Shown: piece by piece, positions 22,753 through 47,341 of the stretch
Numbering within the stretch: the stretch's first letter is position 1
Layout: every line of letters begins with the position of its first letter
NCBI RefSeq assembly: GCF_010723305.1
Contig: NZ_BLKW01000002.1
Location: 1,674,001 to 1,738,000, forward strand
Direction of reading: 5' to 3'
Source: Mycobacterium botniense
Lineage (GTDB): Bacteria; Actinomycetota; Actinomycetes; Mycobacteriales; Mycobacteriaceae
Length of the DNA stretch: 64,000 nt
The notes under the pieces: generated by a model
The model's input: only the letters and a program-made list of their open reading frames with translations
Databases searched by the model: none
Told to the model about the DNA's origin: nothing
Program-made: the position numbers and the translations under genes

Positions 22753-22766
22753 TAGAACACGTTTCA
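22753..22766. promoter_or_regulatory. KstR operator proximal to fadA5
   Basis: TAGAACACGTTTCA fits TnnAACnnGTTnnA at all fixed positions. It lies 10 bp upstream of the fadA5 ATG. Confidence 0.88.
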
Positions 22767-22845: not shown

Positions 22846-22860
22846 TTGAGGAGTGCACCG

Positions 22861-24138
22861 ATGGCTGTGCCCGCGAAGGGCCCCGTTGCGGGGCCTAGTC
22901 TGCCACCCGGGTTCGACTTCACCGATCCTGACATCTACGTCGAACGGTTACCCGTCGACGAGTTTGCCGAGGTGCGCAAGGCGGCGCCGATCTGCTGGAT
23001 AGAGCAACCCCCTGGCAAGGGCGGGGGCTTCCATGACGGCGGCTACTGGGCGATCACCAAGCACAAAGACGTCAAAGAGGTGTCGCTGCGCAGCGACATC
23101 TTCTCCAGTTACGAGAACTGCGTGATTCCGCGCTTCAAAAACGACATCGCGCGCGACGACATCGACGTGCAGCGCTTCGTCATGCTCAACATGGACGCAC
23201 CGCATCACACCCGACTGCGCAAAATCATTTCCCGCGGGTTCACTCCGCGGGCGATCGGCCGCCTGCGTGACGAACTCAATGAGCGGGCTCAGAACATCGC
23301 CAAGGCGGCGGCGGCCAAGGGTTCCGGCGACTTCGTCGAACAGGTGTCCTGTGAGCTGCCGTTGCAGGCGATCGCGGGTCTGCTGGGAGTGCCGCAGCAG
23401 GACCGGGACAAGTTGTTCCGATGGTCTAACGAGATGACCGGTAACGAAGATCCCGAGTATGCCCACATCGACCCGAAGATGTCGTCGGCCGAATTGATCG
23501 CCTACGCGATGCAGATGGCCGAGGAACGGGCAAAGAACCCCGGCGATGACATTGTCACCCAACTGATTCAGGCTGATATCGATGGGGAGAAGCTTTCCGA
23601 CGACGAGTTCGGTTTCTTCGTGGTGATGCTCGCGGTGGCCGGTAATGAGACCACCCGCAACTCCATCACCCAGGGCATGATGGCCTTCACCGAGTTCCCC
23701 GACCAGTGGGAGCTGTTCAAACGGGAACGCCCGGTGACCGCCGCCGATGAGATCGTCCGATGGGCCACCCCGGTCACGTGTTTCCAGCGCACCGCGCTGC
23801 AGGATTATGAACTGTCCGGGGTGCAGATCAAAAAGGGGCAGCGGGTGGTGATGTTCTACCGCTCGGCCAACTTCGACGAGGACGTGTTCGAGGATCCCTA
23901 CCGCTTCAACATCCTGCGCAACCCCAACCCGCATGTGGGATTCGGCGGCACCGGAGCGCATTACTGCATCGGCGCCAACCTGGCCCGGATGACGATCGAG
24001 CTGATGTTCAATGCGATCGCCGATCACATGCCCGATCTGACGCCGATCTCCACACCGCAACGATTGCGCTCGGGCTGGCTGAACGGCATCAAACACTGGC
24101 AGGTCGACTACATTGGCCAGTGCCCGGTGGCTCACTAG
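22861..24138 (+). CDS. cyp125: Sterol C26/C27-oxidising cytochrome P450 CYP125
   Basis: The 425-residue P450 has the I-helix AGNETTRNS, the ExxR pair (EIVR) and the heme loop FGGTGAHYCIGANLAR with ligand C369. It oxidises the terminal methyl of cholesterol and cholest-4-en-3-one to the acid, starting side-chain degradation. The ATG at 22861 follows GAGGAGTGCACCG; an earlier ATG in frame at 22846 sits immediately after the KstR box and lacks a ribosome-binding site. It heads the cyp125-fadE28-fadE29-chsH2-chsH1-ltp2 operon. Confidence 0.96.
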   Translation: MAVPAKGPVAGPSLPPGFDFTDPDIYVERLPVDEFAEVRKAAPICWIEQPPGKGGGFHDGGYWAITKHKDVKEVSLRSDIFSSYENCVIPRFKNDIARDDIDVQRFVMLNMDAPHHTRLRKIISRGFTPRAIGRLRDELNERAQNIAKAAAAKGSGDFVEQVSCELPLQAIAGLLGVPQQDRDKLFRWSNEMTGNEDPEYAHIDPKMSSAELIAYAMQMAEERAKNPGDDIVTQLIQADIDGEKLSDDEFGFFVVMLAVAGNETTRNSITQGMMAFTEFPDQWELFKRERPVTAADEIVRWATPVTCFQRTALQDYELSGVQIKKGQRVVMFYRSANFDEDVFEDPYRFNILRNPNPHVGFGGTGAHYCIGANLARMTIELMFNAIADHMPDLTPISTPQRLRSGWLNGIKHWQVDYIGQCPVAH

Positions 24139-34928: not shown

Positions 34929-34942
34929 AGGAACACGTTCTA
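34929..34942. promoter_or_regulatory. KstR operator upstream of the DUF1214 operon
   Basis: AGGAACACGTTCTA fits the KstR consensus with one mismatch at the first position. It ends 10 bp before the GTG at 34953. Confidence 0.8.
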
Positions 34943-34952
34943 GCGTCGAGGC

Positions 34953-36080
34953 GTGTTCTCAGATCCGCTCACGGAAGCGATCGCCGAGGCCGAGAAACTG
35001 GTGGCCGCCGCACCGCATATCGAGACCGAAGCCGACCTGCTCGAAGGACTCCAGTATCTGGCCGGCTGCGTTGCCGCCTGCACACACATCGCGTTCAACT
35101 ACGACCGCGATCACCCGTTCTTGCTCTCGGGCACCGGGCCGTTCACAAAAATGGGACTGGACAATCCCGACACCCTCTACTTCGGCTGTCGGGTGCACGC
35201 CGATTATGACTACGTCGTCACCGGCCGCAGGGGCACGACCACCGACTTGAGTTTTCAGGTGCTCGGTGGGGAATACACCGACGACGAAGTGCCGGCCAGC
35301 CAGGTTGCGTTCGACGACCGCGAACTCGACATCGCCGAGGACGGGAGCTTCGAGTGGCGGCTGCGGCCAACCAGCAATGGGCAATTGGTGATCCGCGAAG
35401 TCTACGGCGACTGGTCGCAGCAGCGTGGCACGGTGGCTATCGCACGGCTGGATACCGCGGGCACCGCGCCACCACCCCTGACCCGCGACACCATCGAAAA
35501 GCGCTATGCCACAGCAGCACAGCAGTTAGTTCAACGAGTCAAGACCTGGCTGCAGTTCCCGCAATGGTTCTATCTCAACATCCCGGTCAACACCATGGTG
35601 GCACCCCGGCTGACTCCCGGCGGTCTGGCGACGCAGTACTCGTCGGCCGGGCATTTTGATCTGCGGCCTGATCAGGCGCTGGTTATCACGGTGCCGGTGA
35701 CCGACGCGCCGTATCTGGGGTTCCAGCTGGGCAGCATGTGGTATATCTCGCTGGACTACATCAACCACCAGACTTCGCTGAATTCCAGTCAGGCGCAGGA
35801 AGATCCGGATGGCAAGATCCGCATCGTGGTCGCCGACCAAAATCCGGGCATCACCAACTGGGTCGAAACCCTGGGGCATCGCCGGGGGTTTCTGCAGTTT
35901 CGCTGGCAACGGGTGTCACGTCAGCTCACCGAGGCCGACGGTCCTACGGTCGAACTTGTTGACTTCGACGCGGTGCCGGACGCGCTTCCGTACTTCGATC
36001 ACAACAAGATTTCTCCCTCCGCATGGCGCATGCGAATCGCGCAGCGCCAGAATCAAATCGCGAACAGGATGCTGGGATAG
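34953..36080 (+). CDS. DUF1214-family protein (Rv3531c-like)
   Basis: This 375-residue protein has no signal peptide. It contains the DUF1214 region in the second half (QALVITVPVTDAPYLGFQLGS-type strand, LGHRRGFLQFRWQR). The reaction is unknown. It is the first gene of a three-gene KstR-controlled unit with an SDR (36083) and a sulfotransferase (36865), all tightly spaced. Regulation and neighbours suggest a side pathway of sterol modification. The start is a GTG 10 bp after the KstR box. Confidence 0.85.
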   Translation: MFSDPLTEAIAEAEKLVAAAPHIETEADLLEGLQYLAGCVAACTHIAFNYDRDHPFLLSGTGPFTKMGLDNPDTLYFGCRVHADYDYVVTGRRGTTTDLSFQVLGGEYTDDEVPASQVAFDDRELDIAEDGSFEWRLRPTSNGQLVIREVYGDWSQQRGTVAIARLDTAGTAPPPLTRDTIEKRYATAAQQLVQRVKTWLQFPQWFYLNIPVNTMVAPRLTPGGLATQYSSAGHFDLRPDQALVITVPVTDAPYLGFQLGSMWYISLDYINHQTSLNSSQAQEDPDGKIRIVVADQNPGITNWVETLGHRRGFLQFRWQRVSRQLTEADGPTVELVDFDAVPDALPYFDHNKISPSAWRMRIAQRQNQIANRMLG

Positions 36081-36082
36081 CA

Positions 36083-36865
36083 ATGACCGGGATGCTCGAC
36101 GGCAAAGTAGTGGTGATCAGCGGTGTCGGCCCCGCGCTGGGCACCACACTTGCACGGCGGTGCGCGCGCGACGGCGCCGACCTGGTGCTGGCGGCCCGGA
36201 CCGCCGACCGTCTCGACGACGTCGCGAAACAAATCGCCGAAACCGGCCGACGCGCGGTGCCCGTCGCCACCGATATCACCGACGACGACCAGGTGAAAAA
36301 CCTCGTTGACTCGGCGTTGGCCGCCTACGGCAAAGTCGATGTGCTGATCAACAACGCTTTTCGAGTGCCCTCGATGAAGCCATTGGCTGGAACGACGTTT
36401 CAGCATATCCGCGACGCGATCGAGCTCACCGTGTTGGGCGCGTTGCGGGTCATCCAGGGCTTCACACCCGCGCTCGCACAGGCCAAAGGCGCGATCGTCA
36501 ACGTCAACTCCATGGTGATCCGGCACTCCCAGCCGAAATACGGTGCATACAAGATGGCCAAGTCAGCACTGCTGGCGATGTCTCAATCCTTGGCCAGCGA
36601 ACTCGGCGAACAGGGGATTAGAGTTAATTCCGTTGCTCCCGGCTATATTTGGGGAGAAACACTGAAGCGCTACTTCGAGCATCAGGCTGGCAAGTACGGG
36701 ACCACGGTAGAGCAGATCTATACCGCCACCGCCGCGAATTCCGACTTGAAACGGCTGCCGACTGAGGACGAGGTTTCGGCGGCGATCGTATTCTTGGCGA
36801 GCGACCTGGCCAGCGGTATCACCGGCCAGACGCTCGACGTCAACTGTGGGGAGTACAAAGCCTAA
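36083..36865 (+). CDS. SDR-family oxidoreductase (Rv3530c-like)
   Basis: This 260-residue short-chain dehydrogenase has the atypical cofactor motif SGVGPALGTTLARRCARDGA near 13-32, INNAF (instead of NNAG) near 89-93, and YGAYKMAKSAL with Tyr and Lys of the active site. The Gly-to-Phe change in NNAG is odd but is shared with the H37Rv protein as I remember it. The start at 36083 follows the stop of the DUF1214 gene by 2 bp. The substrate is unknown. Confidence 0.85.
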   Translation: MTGMLDGKVVVISGVGPALGTTLARRCARDGADLVLAARTADRLDDVAKQIAETGRRAVPVATDITDDDQVKNLVDSALAAYGKVDVLINNAFRVPSMKPLAGTTFQHIRDAIELTVLGALRVIQGFTPALAQAKGAIVNVNSMVIRHSQPKYGAYKMAKSALLAMSQSLASELGEQGIRVNSVAPGYIWGETLKRYFEHQAGKYGTTVEQIYTATAANSDLKRLPTEDEVSAAIVFLASDLASGITGQTLDVNCGEYKA

Positions 36866-41662: not shown

Positions 41663-42088
41663 TTAGACTGGCCGGGCGGTGGCGGCGGCGCGCTCCGGCT
41701 CCCAGTATGCGCGCAGCGCCACCAGCTTGCCGTCGTCGTTCACCTTGTAGGTGAACACCCCCTCCGCGGTGATCTGGTGTCCGCCCATGGTGATGACGAT
41801 GTTGCCGACATTGGCTTCTTCATGGCCGCACTGGAAGGTGTCGCGGAAGTCGAACTCGATCGAGTCCGTCGGTGCAATCGCCTTGTCCCAGAACGCTGAG
41901 ATGGCATCACGGCCACGGTGTCCTTTGCCTTCGGGGTCGAACACCGACGGCCCGATCGGGTCTTCGACGATGGCATCGTCGGCGAACACCGCCAGCCACG
42001 CTTCTTTGTCTTTCGCCCGCACCGCCTCGCGGGAGCGACGGCCGGCGGCGTGTGCAGGGTGCTCTGTCCGGGTATTTATGTCGGTCAT
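41663..42088 (-). CDS. SnoaL/NTF2-like protein
   Basis: This 141-residue protein has a cone-shaped NTF2 fold (AWLAVFADDAIVEDPIGPSVF near 31-51, GRDAISAFWDKAIAP, DTFQCGHEEANVGNIVITM, and a final YKVNDDGKLVALRAYWEP strand). Ketosteroid isomerases and polyketide cyclases share this fold. The acidic IVEDPIG segment is where catalytic residues usually lie. Its ATG overlaps the LLM gene stop (ATGA). It is absent from the equivalent H37Rv operon as I recall it, and it may isomerise or hydrate a side-chain or ring intermediate. Confidence 0.82.
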   Translation of the reverse strand: MTDINTRTEHPAHAAGRRSREAVRAKDKEAWLAVFADDAIVEDPIGPSVFDPEGKGHRGRDAISAFWDKAIAPTDSIEFDFRDTFQCGHEEANVGNIVITMGGHQITAEGVFTYKVNDDGKLVALRAYWEPERAAATARPV

Positions 42089-42978
42089 GCCTCGTCCTGC
42101 CAGCCGGAGTGAATATAGGTGTCGGCGAAGCGTTTGAGCGAGTCCTTCTTCTTGTCCAGCGGCGCGTCGAAGCCGAGGCCGTCAAGAATCCAGGGGATGA
42201 CGATGTTGTCGGTGACGCCGATCTCGGCGAGCTGACGGTGCCCGTCCACGCCGAACTTGTCAACGCACACCGCCTGAAACTCGAAAGGTTGACCGGCGCG
42301 GCCGTATTCGGCGCGCAGCACATTGAGCCGTGCGATGGTGTCGCGTAACTGCTCACACGTCATCATGGCGCTGGTCCAGCCGTCGCCGATGCGGGCAGCC
42401 CGCTTGAGCGCAGGCTCGGTATGGCCGCCGACGTAGAACGGCACCGGTGCGCTGGGCGCCGGGCTCATCTGCAACCTGTCGAAGTCATAGAACTCGCCGT
42501 GAAATTCCACCATACCGCCGCCGAGGACTAATTTGATGACCTCGATCATCTCGTCGACCCGCGCGCCGCGGCGCGCATACGGCTGCCCGCACCATTCGAA
42601 TTCCTCTGGTGCCCAGCCGATCCCGATGCCAAAGCCGAACCGGTTGTTGGTTAAATTAGCGACCGACCCGACTTGGCGAGCCAGCAGCAGCGGGTTGCGG
42701 GAACCGAGTTTCATCACGTTGGTGTAGAACCGCAGCGTCGAGGTCACCGCACCCATTGCCGCCGCAGCGATCAGCGGGTCGACCCAGGGTGTGTTCTCGT
42801 TCCACATCCGGGAACCGTCCGCGGTGTAAGGGTAATCCGCGGACGCCTTTTCCATATAAAACAGCGAATCGGGCAGCGCGATCGAGTCGAATCCACAGTC
42901 CTCAGCGGTGCGGGCGATATCGAGCAGTTCGTCGATGGGACCCATCGCGATACTGCACGTGTACTTCATCCGGGTCAC
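42085..42978 (-). CDS. LLM-class F420-dependent oxidoreductase
   Basis: This 297-residue TIM-barrel enzyme of the luciferase-like family has FGFDSIALPDSLF near 28-40, FGFGIGIGWAPEEFEWCGQPY near 119-138, and VPFYVGGHTEPALKRAARIGDGW. Such enzymes use F420 in mycobacteria. It is coupled by GTGA overlap to the ltp3 stop and by ATGA overlap to the NTF2-like gene, placing it within the KstR-controlled ltp operon. The substrate is unknown; a double-bond reduction on a sterol-derived CoA ester is a fair guess. Confidence 0.86.
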   Translation of the reverse strand: MTRMKYTCSIAMGPIDELLDIARTAEDCGFDSIALPDSLFYMEKASADYPYTADGSRMWNENTPWVDPLIAAAAMGAVTSTLRFYTNVMKLGSRNPLLLARQVGSVANLTNNRFGFGIGIGWAPEEFEWCGQPYARRGARVDEMIEVIKLVLGGGMVEFHGEFYDFDRLQMSPAPSAPVPFYVGGHTEPALKRAARIGDGWTSAMMTCEQLRDTIARLNVLRAEYGRAGQPFEFQAVCVDKFGVDGHRQLAEIGVTDNIVIPWILDGLGFDAPLDKKKDSLKRFADTYIHSGWQDEA

Positions 42979-44156
42979 GTGACGGTCCTGGGCTTTTCGC
43001 TACCAACCACCCACATCGAGAAGTACTGAGAACCGCCGCCGTAGGCGTGACCGAGCGCCTTGCGGGCACCGGGAACTTGATGCGCCCCGCCCTTGCCCAT
43101 CACCTGGATCGCCGCCTCGGCGAAGCGGATCAGCCCCGACGCGCCGATCGGGTTGGATGACAACACACCCCCGGACGGGTTAACCGGCAGCCGCCCGCCG
43201 ATCGCGGTCTCCCCGGCCTCGGTGAGCTTCCAACCCTCGCCCTCGGGCGCGAAACCAAGGTTCTCGAGCCACATCGGCTCGAACCAGGAGAACGGCACAT
43301 AGATTTCGGCGGCATCGATCTCGTCGATCGGGCTGGTGATGCCGGCGGTCTGCCACAGCGCGGCCGCACAGTCGCGGCCGGCTTGTGGGTTGACCTGGTC
43401 GCGGCCGGCGTAGGCGAGCGGCTCGGTACGCAGCGCGGTGGCGTGAATCCACGCGACCGGCTGCCCCTGGGCGACATGCTGGTCGGCGATCTGCTCGTCA
43501 CCGATAACAAGCGCGCACGCCCCATCCGACGAAGGGCACGTCTCATCGCGGCGGATCGGATCCCAAAGCATTTCAGACGACATCACCTTCTCCAGCGTGA
43601 TGTCGGGTTGTTGGACGTGCGCCAAGGGGTTCTTCGCACCGTTGAGTCGGTCTTTGACCGCGACCATCGCACCGATGTGCGTCGGCGCACCAGAGCGGCG
43701 GATGTAGGCCCGCACATGGGGGGCGAAATAACCACCCGCGCCCGCGCCGACCGGCTTGGTGAACGGCACCGGAATCGACAGCGCCCACATGGCATTCGAT
43801 TCCGATTGTTTCTCCCACGCCATCGCCAGCACGCGGTGGTACTTGCCCGACTGAACCAGGCTGGCGGCCACCACCCCGGTCGATCCGCCTACCGAACCGG
43901 CGGTATGCACTCGGATCAGCGGTTTGCCGGTGGCGCCAACAGCATCGGCCATGAACAGCTCAGGCATCATGACGCCTTCGAAGAAATCCGGCGCCTTACC
44001 CACCACAACAGCGTCGATGTCGTCGAAGGTGGTGCCGGAGTCAGCCAATGCGCGGTCAATCGCCTCGCGCACCAGACCGTTCATCGACACGTCATGACGC
44101 TTGGCAACATATTTCGTTTGACCGGTGCCGAGCACTGCGGCGAGTCGCGCGGCCAT
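42975..44156 (-). CDS. ltp3: Thiolase-like aldolase Ltp3
   Basis: This 393-residue SCP2/thiolase-fold protein has a nucleophile-like region HTAGSVGGSTGVVAASLVQSG (Ser rather than Cys near 88), GRLPVNPSGGVLSSNPIGASG and HAYGGGSQYFSMW. Ltp3 and Ltp4 are needed in Rhodococcus for breaking C-24 branched side chains of plant sterols. A TGATG overlap joins it to ltp4. Lack of the usual thiolase cysteine fits an aldolase rather than a thiolase. Confidence 0.9.
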   Translation of the reverse strand: MAARLAAVLGTGQTKYVAKRHDVSMNGLVREAIDRALADSGTTFDDIDAVVVGKAPDFFEGVMMPELFMADAVGATGKPLIRVHTAGSVGGSTGVVAASLVQSGKYHRVLAMAWEKQSESNAMWALSIPVPFTKPVGAGAGGYFAPHVRAYIRRSGAPTHIGAMVAVKDRLNGAKNPLAHVQQPDITLEKVMSSEMLWDPIRRDETCPSSDGACALVIGDEQIADQHVAQGQPVAWIHATALRTEPLAYAGRDQVNPQAGRDCAAALWQTAGITSPIDEIDAAEIYVPFSWFEPMWLENLGFAPEGEGWKLTEAGETAIGGRLPVNPSGGVLSSNPIGASGLIRFAEAAIQVMGKGGAHQVPGARKALGHAYGGGSQYFSMWVVGSEKPRTVT

Positions 44157-45220
44157 CAGTTCTTCCTTTCCATGACGGCGACCAAGTTCTGCTGCAGCGC
44201 CGGACCGCTGGTGGCGTGGGCCAGCACACGCTGCGCGGAGCCATTCCAGATATGTTGTGCCGCAAATCCTATGCGCTCAAGGCCAGCGACAAACATCGGA
44301 TTGGCAGCCAGCGCGCCCCCAGAGGGGTTCACTTTCACCGACGCGGGTAACCTCATCGCCTCGGCCAGGATGAGGTACTGGTGAGTGAACGGTGCATGGA
44401 TCTCCGCGACGTCGATCGTGCGCATTTTGCCGCCGGTGGCAATCTTCGTCGCCACCGTGGTCGACGGCGACACCGTGAGGTCGCGCGCACCCAGCACAGG
44501 GGATTCGATGCGGTGTTCGAAACCGGTGATCCAGGCAGGGTTTTCACGCAGCTCGCGAGCCCGGTCATCGGCGGCGAGCACGATGGCAGCGGCACCGTCA
44601 GTGATCGGTGCGATGTCGTGACGGCGCAGCGGGTCAGCGAAAAACGGCCGCTCGAGCAGCTCTTGGACGCTCTCGGGTTGCGGCAGTTTATCGACTCGCG
44701 GTGCCTGCGCGAAAGAATCATAGGCAACCCGGGCCATCTGTTCGAAGGTCCATTTGCTGGCCTCCAATCCGAGGCGGGCCTGCAGCCCGGCGATCGACAC
44801 CGAATCGGGCCACAGTGGCGCGACCGTGTAGGGGTCGGTCTGCCGCGACAAGATGCGACGCAACATCCCGGCTGAGGACTTCCCAAAGCCGTAGACGAGC
44901 GCGGTGTCCACCTCGCCGGTGAGTAGCTTGATATAAGCCTCGTAGGCCGCCCACGCCGCGTCCATTTCCACATGCGACTCGTTGATCGGCGGAACGGCAC
45001 CGATTGAGTCGATCGCAGAGATGAAAGAAAACGCCCGCCCCGCAAGATAATCCGACGAACCTGAGCACCAGAAGCCGATGTCGGCCTTGGTGATGCCGAG
45101 CTCGTCGTACAGCTGGGCGAAACACGGCATCAACATCTCGACGCCGTTGGTGGTGCCATCGGTTCGGCGGACATGCGGGGCATGGGCGAAGCCAACCACC
45201 GCAACTTCACGAGCGCTCAT
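44156..45220 (-). CDS. ltp4: Thiolase-like aldolase Ltp4
   Basis: This 354-residue thiolase-fold protein has AVVGFAHAPHVRR at the N-terminus, ESHVEMDAAWAAYEAYIKLL in the place of the nucleophile loop, and VNPSGGALAANPMFVAG. It lacks the thiolase Cys. The ATG at 45220 gives the same length as Rv3522. It lies 8 bp after the stop of the OB-fold gene at 45229. It likely forms a heteromer with Ltp3 and the DUF35-type partner. Confidence 0.9.
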   Translation of the reverse strand: MSAREVAVVGFAHAPHVRRTDGTTNGVEMLMPCFAQLYDELGITKADIGFWCSGSSDYLAGRAFSFISAIDSIGAVPPINESHVEMDAAWAAYEAYIKLLTGEVDTALVYGFGKSSAGMLRRILSRQTDPYTVAPLWPDSVSIAGLQARLGLEASKWTFEQMARVAYDSFAQAPRVDKLPQPESVQELLERPFFADPLRRHDIAPITDGAAAIVLAADDRARELRENPAWITGFEHRIESPVLGARDLTVSPSTTVATKIATGGKMRTIDVAEIHAPFTHQYLILAEAMRLPASVKVNPSGGALAANPMFVAGLERIGFAAQHIWNGSAQRVLAHATSGPALQQNLVAVMERKN

Positions 45221-45228
45221 CACAGCCT

Positions 45229-46251
45229 TTACAAGTGGTGTTTGTAGGTGTCGTAATCGGCGTCCGGTTCTCCGGTCGGCCGGAAATACTCGATGTTGTC
45301 GATGCCTAAGCCCCATTCCTCACGCGGTTTCCACACCGCCTCGACGCGCATGCCCATCCGGACCTCGTGCGCATCCACCTCGGCAACGAGGTGCAACAAC
45401 GGAATGTCAGCGCCGTCGAGCAGCACATAGGCGGCCACATAGGGGGGCTTGATGCGCTGGCCCATGAACGGGATATTGATAATCGCGAACGTCGTCACCG
45501 TGCCTTTGTCCGGCAGTTCGACGAACTCGGTCATCGGCAGACCGGTCGCAGGATCAGCTTCGCGCGGCGGGAAGTACACCTTGCCCGGTTCTCCGCCATC
45601 GCCACCCGTGCGGGCACCCAGCAGCTTGCCTTGCTGCAACGCGCGCAGATACACACTTTCCGGATGCGAAGCACTGTGCTGAATCTCCATGTCGATCGGG
45701 GTGACGACGATGGTGACCGGATCACGGGCCTCGTGCTGGGCAGTGTCCGCCTCAGATGTCGCCTCAGATGTTTCTGCCTCACCGAGAGCGAAATAGGCGA
45801 TGTCGGTGATGGCGCCGACCGGCTTGTCGGCCCAGTGCACGTGCACCCGGGTACCGGTGCGGATAGCTTTGGGATCACCGACATCCACGGCGTGCACCAG
45901 CGGAGTGTCGGCGCCGTCGAGTTTGATTAGCGCCCAGGCGAACGGGCGGTCCAGTGGCTGGCCGGCGACCGGCTGAGGTTGCCACGTCCAGGACACCACA
46001 GTCCCGGTTGTCGACACCGGTACCATCTCGTCCAGCGGTTCGTAGGTGACCGGGTCATATTCGGCCGGTGGCACATGCACCCGACCATCGGATCCGCGCA
46101 CGCCCAGGATGTGGCGGTCACGGAGTGCCGTGAAAAACTTGCTCAACGTGGGGCCGACTGAACGTTCGTAGTCGAACGACAACCTCAGCGGCGCGGAAAG
46201 AGGTGGTTCCGGATGGTCGATCAGGGTCAAGCGGCTTGAACGAGCTGTCAC
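45229..46251 (-). CDS. Two-domain OB-fold (DUF35) protein, Rv3521-like
   Basis: This 340-residue protein has two similar halves, each an OB-fold of the DUF35 family: an N-terminal half around VHVPPAEYDPVTYEPLDEMVPV with WTWQPQPVAGQPLDRPFAWALIKLDGAD, and a second half around KVYFPPREADPATGLPMTEFVEL with FMGQRIKPPYVAAYVLLDGAD. A Glu/Thr-rich linker (near 160-172) joins them. DUF35 domains partner thiolase-fold aldolases, as ChsH2 does with Ltp2, so this is the predicted partner of Ltp3 and Ltp4. The GTG at 46251 was chosen because the longer frame starts inside or beyond the KstR box. Confidence 0.85.
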   Translation of the reverse strand: MTARSSRLTLIDHPEPPLSAPLRLSFDYERSVGPTLSKFFTALRDRHILGVRGSDGRVHVPPAEYDPVTYEPLDEMVPVSTTGTVVSWTWQPQPVAGQPLDRPFAWALIKLDGADTPLVHAVDVGDPKAIRTGTRVHVHWADKPVGAITDIAYFALGEAETSEATSEADTAQHEARDPVTIVVTPIDMEIQHSASHPESVYLRALQQGKLLGARTGGDGGEPGKVYFPPREADPATGLPMTEFVELPDKGTVTTFAIINIPFMGQRIKPPYVAAYVLLDGADIPLLHLVAEVDAHEVRMGMRVEAVWKPREEWGLGIDNIEYFRPTGEPDADYDTYKHHL

Positions 46252-46260
46252 GGCTTCGAG

Positions 46261-46274
46261 TAGAACAGGTTCTA
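46261..46274. promoter_or_regulatory. KstR operator between the ltp4-ltp3 operon and the LLM gene
   Basis: TAGAACAGGTTCTA is a perfect palindrome for six bases on each side and fits TnnAACnnGTTnnA. It lies 9 bp before the GTG at 46251 and 35 bp before the ATG at 46310. Confidence 0.9.
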
Positions 46275-46309: not shown

Positions 46310-47341
46310 ATGAAGCTCGGCCTTCAGCTTGGATACTGGGGGGCTCAGCCGCCGCAGAACGCCGGGGAATTGGTGGCTGCCGCCGAGGAGGCGGGTTTCG
46401 ACGCGGTGTTCACCGCCGAGGCCTGGGGATCGGATGCTTACACTCCGCTGGCCTGGTGGGGGGCGTCGACCCGCCGGGTGCGACTGGGCACCTCGGTGGT
46501 CCAGCTGTCTGCGCGGAGCCCGACGGCGTGCGCGATGGCCGCCCTGACGCTCGATCACCTGTGCGGTGGCCGGCACATTCTCGGGCTGGGAGTGTCCGGC
46601 CCCCAGGTGGTAGAGGGCTGGTATGGCCAGCCGTTTCCCAAGCCGCTGGCCCGCACCCGTGAATACATCAATATCATCCGCCAGGTGTGGGCCCGCGAGA
46701 AACCGGTGACCAGCGACGGCCCGCACTACCCGCTGCCGCTCACCGGTGAGGGGACAACGGGTCTGGGCAAGGCGCTCAAGCCCATCACCCACCCGCTGCG
46801 CGCCGACATCCCGATCATGCTGGGCGCCGAAGGCCCTAAGAACGTCGCGCTGGCGGCCGAGATTTGCGACGGCTGGCTCCCCATTTTCTATGCGCCGCGG
46901 CTGGCGGGTATGTACAACGAATGGCTCGACGAGGGCTTCGCGCGGCCAAATGCGCGCCGTACCCGGGCGGACTTCGAGATCTGTGCGACCGCGCAGGTAG
47001 TGATCACCGACGACCGGGCGGCGGCCTTCGCGGGCATCAAGCCCTATCTGGCCCTCTACATGGGCGGTATGGGATCCGAGGACACCAACTTCCACGCCGA
47101 CGTGTACCGGCGCATGGGTTATGCCGAGGTGGTCGAGGACGTGACCAGGCTCTTCCGCAGTAACCGCAAGGATGAAGCCGCCAAGGTGATCCCCGACGAA
47201 CTCGTCGACGATGCCGTGATCGTCGGCGACCTCGACTACGTGCGTAAGCAGATCAGCGTGTGGGAAGCTGCCGGGGTCACCATGATGGTGGTGTCAGCGC
47301 GCAGCCCCGAGCAGGTCCGCGAGCTGGCCGGCGTGCTGTGA
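46310..47341 (+). CDS. LLM-class F420-dependent oxidoreductase (Rv3520c-like)
   Basis: This 343-residue luciferase-like TIM barrel has GFDAVFTAEAWGSDAYTPLAWWG near 29-51, RHILGLGVSGPQVVEGWYG near 88-106, and the conserved DIPIMLGAEGPKNVALAAEICDGW. It matches Rv3520c, expected to bind F420. It is a single gene driven by the KstR box at 46261. The reaction is not known. It is only distantly related to the LLM gene at 42085. Confidence 0.9.
   Translation: MKLGLQLGYWGAQPPQNAGELVAAAEEAGFDAVFTAEAWGSDAYTPLAWWGASTRRVRLGTSVVQLSARSPTACAMAALTLDHLCGGRHILGLGVSGPQVVEGWYGQPFPKPLARTREYINIIRQVWAREKPVTSDGPHYPLPLTGEGTTGLGKALKPITHPLRADIPIMLGAEGPKNVALAAEICDGWLPIFYAPRLAGMYNEWLDEGFARPNARRTRADFEICATAQVVITDDRAAAFAGIKPYLALYMGGMGSEDTNFHADVYRRMGYAEVVEDVTRLFRSNRKDEAAKVIPDELVDDAVIVGDLDYVRKQISVWEAAGVTMMVVSARSPEQVRELAGVL

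Follow-up and report, generated by a model that had tools for sequence, protein, structure and literature searches.

A five-gene operon and its KstR operator

The window, by which the whole analysed stretch of 64,000 nucleotides of Mycobacterium botniense is meant, lies on contig C2 of a genome of 4.3 Mb that is 99.8% complete. At 41663-46274 it holds five genes, all read directly from the minus strand, together with an operator. The genes encode a double DUF35 protein, Ltp4, Ltp3, an LLM-class oxidoreductase and an NTF2-like protein. The double DUF35 protein (45229-46251, minus) is Rv3521-like, has 340 amino acids and no cysteine, and was matched twice by PF01796 as a tandem OB-fold protein with two OB_ChsH2_C stretches. 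Its GTG start was deduced from the orthologues; the mechanical open reading frame (ORF) extends to 46287. From an alignment and an AlphaFold2 model, its N-terminal half was placed at about amino acids 17-156 (45784-46203, minus) and its C-terminal half at about amino acids 178-340 (45232-45720, minus). Ltp4 (44156-45220, minus; 354 amino acids) is a divergent SCP2-thiolase-like subunit (NF005924/PRK07937, 643 bits against a cut-off of 419), and Ltp3 (42975-44156, minus; 393 amino acids) is an SCP2-thiolase-like aldolase subunit (NF006180/PRK08313, 761 bits against 514). The LLM-class protein (42085-42978, minus; 297 amino acids) exceeded the cut-off of TIGR03619 (193.9 against 166.9 bits) and is putatively of the F420 type. 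The last gene (41663-42088, minus) encodes an NTF2/SnoaL-like protein of the Rv0760c type with 141 amino acids (PF12680, SnoaL_2). An 8-bp gap separates the DUF35 gene from ltp4, and the following junctions are the overlaps TGATG (ltp4/ltp3), GTGA (ltp3/LLM) and ATGA (LLM/NTF2-like). Direct reading and family scans thus bore out the operon as proposed in an earlier, sequence-only reading of this DNA. The same reading had taken H37Rv to lack the last two genes. This is consistent with the available part of a published H37Rv gene table, which lists Rv3524 as a membrane protein and Rv3525c as a siderophore-binding protein (PMC6429209).

The KstR operator TAGAACAGGTTCTA (46261-46274, on neither strand in particular) lies between divergent promoters and was recognized by its match to the strict box T..AAC..GTT..A and by identity with a published site. 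The 20 bases that include it, GTTAGAACCTGTTCTACTCG, match the Rv3520c/Rv3521 KstR site exactly, and this site is listed by Kendall et al., in the part of the paper available, as positive in the electrophoretic mobility shift assay for KstR (PMC1995591). A strict box was present at most 150 bp upstream of the double DUF35 gene in 97 of 104 orthologous loci (94 of 101 distinct upstream sequences), most of which come from the window's own genus. From its operator the operon is predicted to be repressed by KstR. That a single box drives the operon had been claimed before; the box is there and matches a bound site, but the intergenic region is shared with an Rv3520c-type LLM gene that starts at 46310 on the other strand (46310-47341, plus; TIGR03559, 509 bits against 335). 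Because it sits between divergent genes, the box need not serve the double DUF35 operon alone. Seven more strict KstR-type boxes occur in the window, at 22753, 22832, 31596, 39734, 47362, 50336 and 60006.

Ltp3 and Ltp4 differ at the presumed catalytic position

When Ltp3 was aligned with SCP2 thiolase, Gly87 was found at the position of the nucleophilic Cys, Tyr286 at that of the His of HDCF and Asn335 at that of the His of the GHP motif. Ltp3 thus has neither the Cys nor the His of thiolase. Tyr286 (codon at 43299-43301, minus) is the presumed catalytic base: according to the part of a 2025 study that is available, the base of Ltp2 is the Tyr of its YDHF motif and that of Sal the Tyr of YDCY, both motifs being related to HDCF (PMC12329534). 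Within its motif YVPF, Tyr286 was invariant in 105 of 105 rows (102 distinct sequences), but the equivalent position of Ltp4 was occupied by His (40), Cys (35), Tyr (26), Gln (3) or Asn (1) in 105 rows, with the pattern unchanged among 102 distinct sequences. The Ltp4 of the window carries His at this position of the Ltp2-type catalytic Tyr. On this pattern Ltp3 is the more likely catalytic subunit, with Ltp4 as its partner.

A second, more distant Ltp3/Ltp4 module was observed beside the main one in some genomes (G021:C4:113400-115615, G060:C15:163113-165328 and G045:C6, locus L188; G, C, L, f and g are our handles for genomes, contigs, loci, families and genera). Its Ltp4 is about 45-48% and its Ltp3 about 58-59% identical to that of the window.

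The double DUF35 protein

The AlphaFold2 model of the 340-amino-acid DUF35 protein had a mean predicted local distance difference test score (pLDDT) of 86.3 and a predicted template modelling score of 0.55, and showed the same order of elements twice. Foldseek returned 17 PDB matches at E 0.001, the best of which were the DUF35 chains of Ltp2-ChsH2 (6ok1); 13 of the 17 titles name aldolases, thiolases or multi-component acyltransferases, and the DUF35 of the Sal aldolase was matched as well. The protein is thus of the kind that binds thiolase-fold aldolases. To that extent the suggestion that it could hold both aldolases was supported; the complex itself is a prediction.

In other lineages the two DUF35 halves were separate, adjacent ORFs in all eight loci checked, which had been chosen because two DUF35 matches had been seen (genomes G044, G053, G061, G009 (f9), G030 (f2), G230, G161 and G159; the N-half is a gene of its own in L096, L178, L179, L180, L183, L198, L211 and L212). 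Each C-half in these eight genomes carries a four-Cys zinc ribbon. Among 19 rows of fused proteins, ribbon cysteines of the C-half numbered four in L064, L094 and L097, three in L065 and L095, and none in the 14 rows of the window's own family, the protein of the window being one that has lost them. The N-half had no zinc-ribbon pattern in any of the 19 aligned rows. Two DUF35 units and two thiolase-fold genes have thus persisted together as a 2:2 set, in keeping with one OB-fold for each subunit. The earlier idea of one DUF35 for each Ltp subunit is therefore supported by the natural splitting into two genes and by the asymmetry of Ltp3 and Ltp4, within a complex that is still predicted.

The same 2:2 set of genes in the split loci inspected would also be expected if Ltp3 and Ltp4 each formed a homodimeric aldolase of its own with one DUF35, the two making consecutive retro-aldol cuts (e.g. 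the C28 branch, then the C25-C27 unit) and being only tethered by the tandem DUF35 for channelling. Sal-Shy, as described in the accessible part of the report, does have a homodimer of the aldolase at its core, with two DUF35 domains at its flanks (PMC12329534). However, the Ltp4 residue at the position of the Ltp2/Sal Tyr varies among H, C, Y, Q and N, which is odd for an active site, and we consider this arrangement unlikely.

Distribution of the LLM and NTF2-like genes

The module had been described as enlarged. This was not borne out, as the order DUF35-ltp4-ltp3-LLM-NTF2 recurs in a second genus of the family (g2: L070, L091) and in family f2 (L064, L065); where fetched loci contained DUF35, ltp4 and ltp3 together, the genes stood in this order. 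Given the five-gene layout in g2 and f2, the shorter versions look like reductions. The five-gene layout looks ancestral, and the short H37Rv form is best read as a reduction.

Within the genus (198 genomes) Ltp3 was found in 185 genomes, NTF2 in 140 and LLM in 94; 74 genomes had both LLM and NTF2, 20 only LLM, 66 only NTF2 and 38 neither. LLM was never present without Ltp3 (0 of 94) and NTF2 only once (1 of 140, G436). The 80 named loci nearest by Ltp4 comprised 23 with both genes, 49 with NTF2 alone, five with LLM alone and three with neither; the NTF2 of L147 is a fragment, and L160, which ends within ltp3, and L148, with only 1.0 kb downstream, were both counted as having neither. In the named loci of the genus the LLM and NTF2 genes stand directly behind ltp3. 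Both genes are found, for example, in M. gastri, M. szulgai, M. celatum and M. shimoidei; NTF2 without LLM was seen in M. colombiense, M. arosiense and M. scrofulaceum, among others. In G095 (L090:11992-12380) the NTF2-like gene is split into two pieces and the adjoining LLM gene is intact.

Among 150 genomes of the order, Ltp4 was found in 47, a strong LLM match (E 1e-80) in 36 and a strong NTF2 match (E 1e-33, excluding the broken G095 copy) in 42. Ltp4 was also present in 35 of the 36 strong-LLM and 41 of the 42 strong-NTF2 genomes, the exception being both times G103, which is 84% complete. The LLM-NTF2 pair looks like an accessory that is old and widely shared rather than an addition. An obligatory role of the pair for Ltp3/Ltp4 was rejected, since one or both genes are absent from many genomes.

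Most detached copies carry KstR boxes

Away from ltp3/ltp4, LLM and NTF2 genes are neighbours in the loci fetched from families f14 and f9 (not in G137 of f9), and in f12 loci they are also separated from each other. The first 15 detached loci had a strict KstR box close to the start in 11 cases and a box with one mismatch in four; random 215-bp windows, drawn from these 15 loci only, contained a strict box in 532 of 30000. After the addition of further loci, other orders included, 20 of 31 detached loci (LLM-NTF2 or either gene) had a strict box and six a box with one mismatch. None of 41 LLM genes inside the operon had a strict box of its own. Taken with the box of the operon, these counts place LLM and NTF2 in most cases under a KstR box, whatever their location. 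No description of a SnoaL/F420 pair in the KstR regulon was found in a limited search of the open-licence literature, which is no proof of absence.

The boxes bear on the suggestion that the LLM and NTF2 genes are passengers that the operon can do without and that have no role at present. Frequent loss in the genus (both are missing from 38 of 198 genomes, 12 of which also lack Ltp3) and the broken NTF2 of G095 would agree with it. However, the detached genes have KstR boxes of their own in several families, and outside the order too, and these are hard to explain without selection, which makes the passenger reading very improbable.

The neighbours of detached pairs in f14 look unrelated when read by eye, one being NlpC/P60-like and one DNA-glycosylase-like. 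A DUF1214 protein and a short-chain dehydrogenase recur beside LLM-NTF2 in f9 and f50 loci; they adjoin the pair in L074, L075 and L197 and are near it in L066 and L067. These neighbours are about 30-38% identical to the window genes at 34953-36080 and 36023-36865, ahead of which a near-KstR box lies at 34929.

Possible chemistry of the LLM and NTF2-like proteins

The NTF2-like protein of the operon is nearest to Rv0760c (best PDB match 2a15) and to a steroid delta-isomerase entry. Asp43, equivalent to the base Asp38 of ketosteroid isomerase (KSI), was present in 102 of 102 rows, but the position of KSI Tyr14 held Ser in 101 rows and Leu in one, and the column aligned with KSI Asp99, where the alignment is loose, held Phe (99), Ile (2) or Ser (1) and no acid. 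An acid-base role is thus plausible and that of a standard KSI is not. The isomerase named in the sequence-only reading amounts to a guess at the level of the fold, with two of the three KSI catalytic residues absent.

A role in the steroid ring system has to be weighed here, in which NTF2 would shift a ring-A double bond of 3-ketosteroids and LLM would act as a reductase of the ring or of steroids in general, both sharing with Ltp3/Ltp4 only the regulon and unrelated to the C-24 branch. The nearest relatives of NTF2, the conserved base D43 and the occurrence of both genes away from ltp3/ltp4 in several families, mostly with KstR boxes, point in this direction. So do two KstR-regulated KSI-like genes of Nocardioides simplex, which may or may not be orthologues of the operon NTF2; both respond to cholesterol and one also to phytosterol, as far as the source was available. 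The substitutions at Tyr14 and Asp99 argue against it, as do the position directly behind ltp3 in the named genus loci and the near absence of the genes from genomes without ltp3 in the genus. We therefore see this role as a real possibility, though not a probable one.

The sitosterol scheme, in the part of its description available, runs through carboxylation at C-28, hydration and retro-aldol cleavage (PMC3546705). Neither LLM nor NTF2 looks like the missing carboxylase. The operon contains no carboxylase or hydratase and many Ltp3 genomes lack LLM or NTF2, so the view that it forms a complete route for plant or fungal side chains was not supported. The link to plant and fungal sterols is a matter of Rhodococcus genetics cited elsewhere; nothing computed here bears on it. 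The gene pair ltp3/ltp4, which the operon has in common with Rhodococcus, is there said to be essential for C24-branched side chains, a finding credited to Wilbrink (2012) by other papers.

We propose a KstR-repressed sterol side-chain operon with an asymmetric Ltp3-Ltp4 retro-aldolase on a tandem DUF35 protein and an accessory LLM-NTF2 pair, and give this proposal an even chance of being correct. Ltp3 and Ltp4 would form an asymmetric thiolase-fold pair held by the tandem DUF35, with one OB-fold for each. Ltp3 would bear the retro-aldol site with Tyr286 as base, and Ltp4, in which this residue has been lost as a fixed feature, would be the partner subunit. The pair may cleave a beta-hydroxy coenzyme A (CoA) thioester with a tertiary C24-OH. 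LLM and NTF2 would be a KstR-controlled accessory pair, within the operon or elsewhere. As a weak guess, they could be of the 2,4-dienoyl-CoA reductase and enoyl-CoA isomerase type and admit unsaturated side chains (22-ene or 24(28)-ene) to the same cleavage; by analogy with fatty acid beta-oxidation, a reductase and an isomerase would suit the 22,24-dienoyl-CoA of stigmasterol-like sterols. A more specific version, in which a heterodimeric sterol aldolase with a pseudo-aldolase subunit clamped by the tandem DUF35 is fed with unsaturated plant and fungal side chains by an F420-dependent dienoyl-CoA reductase and a KSI-fold isomerase, seems to us decidedly unlikely.

Several observations weigh against the proposal. 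Sal repurposes other residues, as the accessible part of its description states (PMC12329534), so that Ltp4 may still be catalytic. The AlphaFold2 model of Ltp4 is weak (best pLDDT 72.2, the other four at most 50.1); this weak model matched thiolase folds in the fold search. Five of the 31 detached loci lack a KstR-like box (two or more mismatches), three of them being NTF2 genes of genus g4, each behind a P450 gene. The responses of the N. simplex genes belong here as well. Both LLM and NTF2 are absent from 26 of the 185 Ltp3 genomes of the genus (the 38 lacking both minus the 12 without Ltp3). In the class (216 genomes) Ltp3 was found in 54 genomes, but even loose cut-offs gave only 27 with LLM and 27 with NTF2, and a number of the LLM matches were at paralogue level; half of the Ltp3 genomes are thus without LLM and NTF2. 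In addition, the genomes are related and do not count as independent cases, and genes that are linked are lost jointly. Finally, all 41 of the 150 order genomes that have the P450 encoded at 22846-24138, which by its position we take to be CYP125, also have Ltp4. Co-occurrence can therefore not separate C-24-branched from general sterol use; it shows a place for LLM and NTF2 in sterol catabolism, not specifically at the C-24 branch.

Relation to known systems

The closest known arrangement is Ltp2-ChsH2 (6ok1), where a DUF35 OB-fold likewise stands beside an SCP2-thiolase-fold aldolase of sterol side-chain catabolism, and the position of its catalytic Tyr is retained in Ltp3. Unlike in Ltp2-ChsH2, the DUF35 of the operon is tandem, the two thiolase-fold subunits are dissimilar, YVPF replaces YDHF, the DUF35 protein has no hydratase domain and the window's genus has no zinc ribbon. 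The bile acid aldolase Sal-Shy (9myr) is also an aldolase with flanking DUF35, an abba tetramer according to the part of the report available (PMC12329534); Sal-Shy differs in its homodimeric aldolase, its YDCY motif with a catalytic Cys and its C3H1 zinc finger. DUF35 and thiolase-fold partners are also combined in the thiolase/HMG-CoA synthase/DUF35 complex (6esq), where the two partners are unlike, and in benzoylsuccinyl-CoA thiolase (7pxp), but these have other chemistry and single-DUF35 chains. A limited search of the open-licence literature yielded no account of the KstR-boxed detached genes, the Ltp3/Ltp4 asymmetry or the split DUF35 genes.

The cleavage of C-24-branched sterols of plants and fungi by actinobacteria is a knowledge gap of industrial weight, as steroid drug precursors are made from phytosterols. 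The pattern described here yields clear tests: which Ltp subunit is catalytic, whether a heteromeric aldolase is assembled on the tandem DUF35, and whether unsaturated side chains are the task of a KstR-controlled pair of genes.

With delta5-3-ketosteroid isomerase and Rv0760c the operon NTF2 shares the NTF2-like family and the Asp base, but KSI Tyr14 and Asp99 are absent from it. A second NTF2-like gene, 39% identical to that of the operon, is located about 80 kb from it in the same genome (G000:C2:1797048-1797431).

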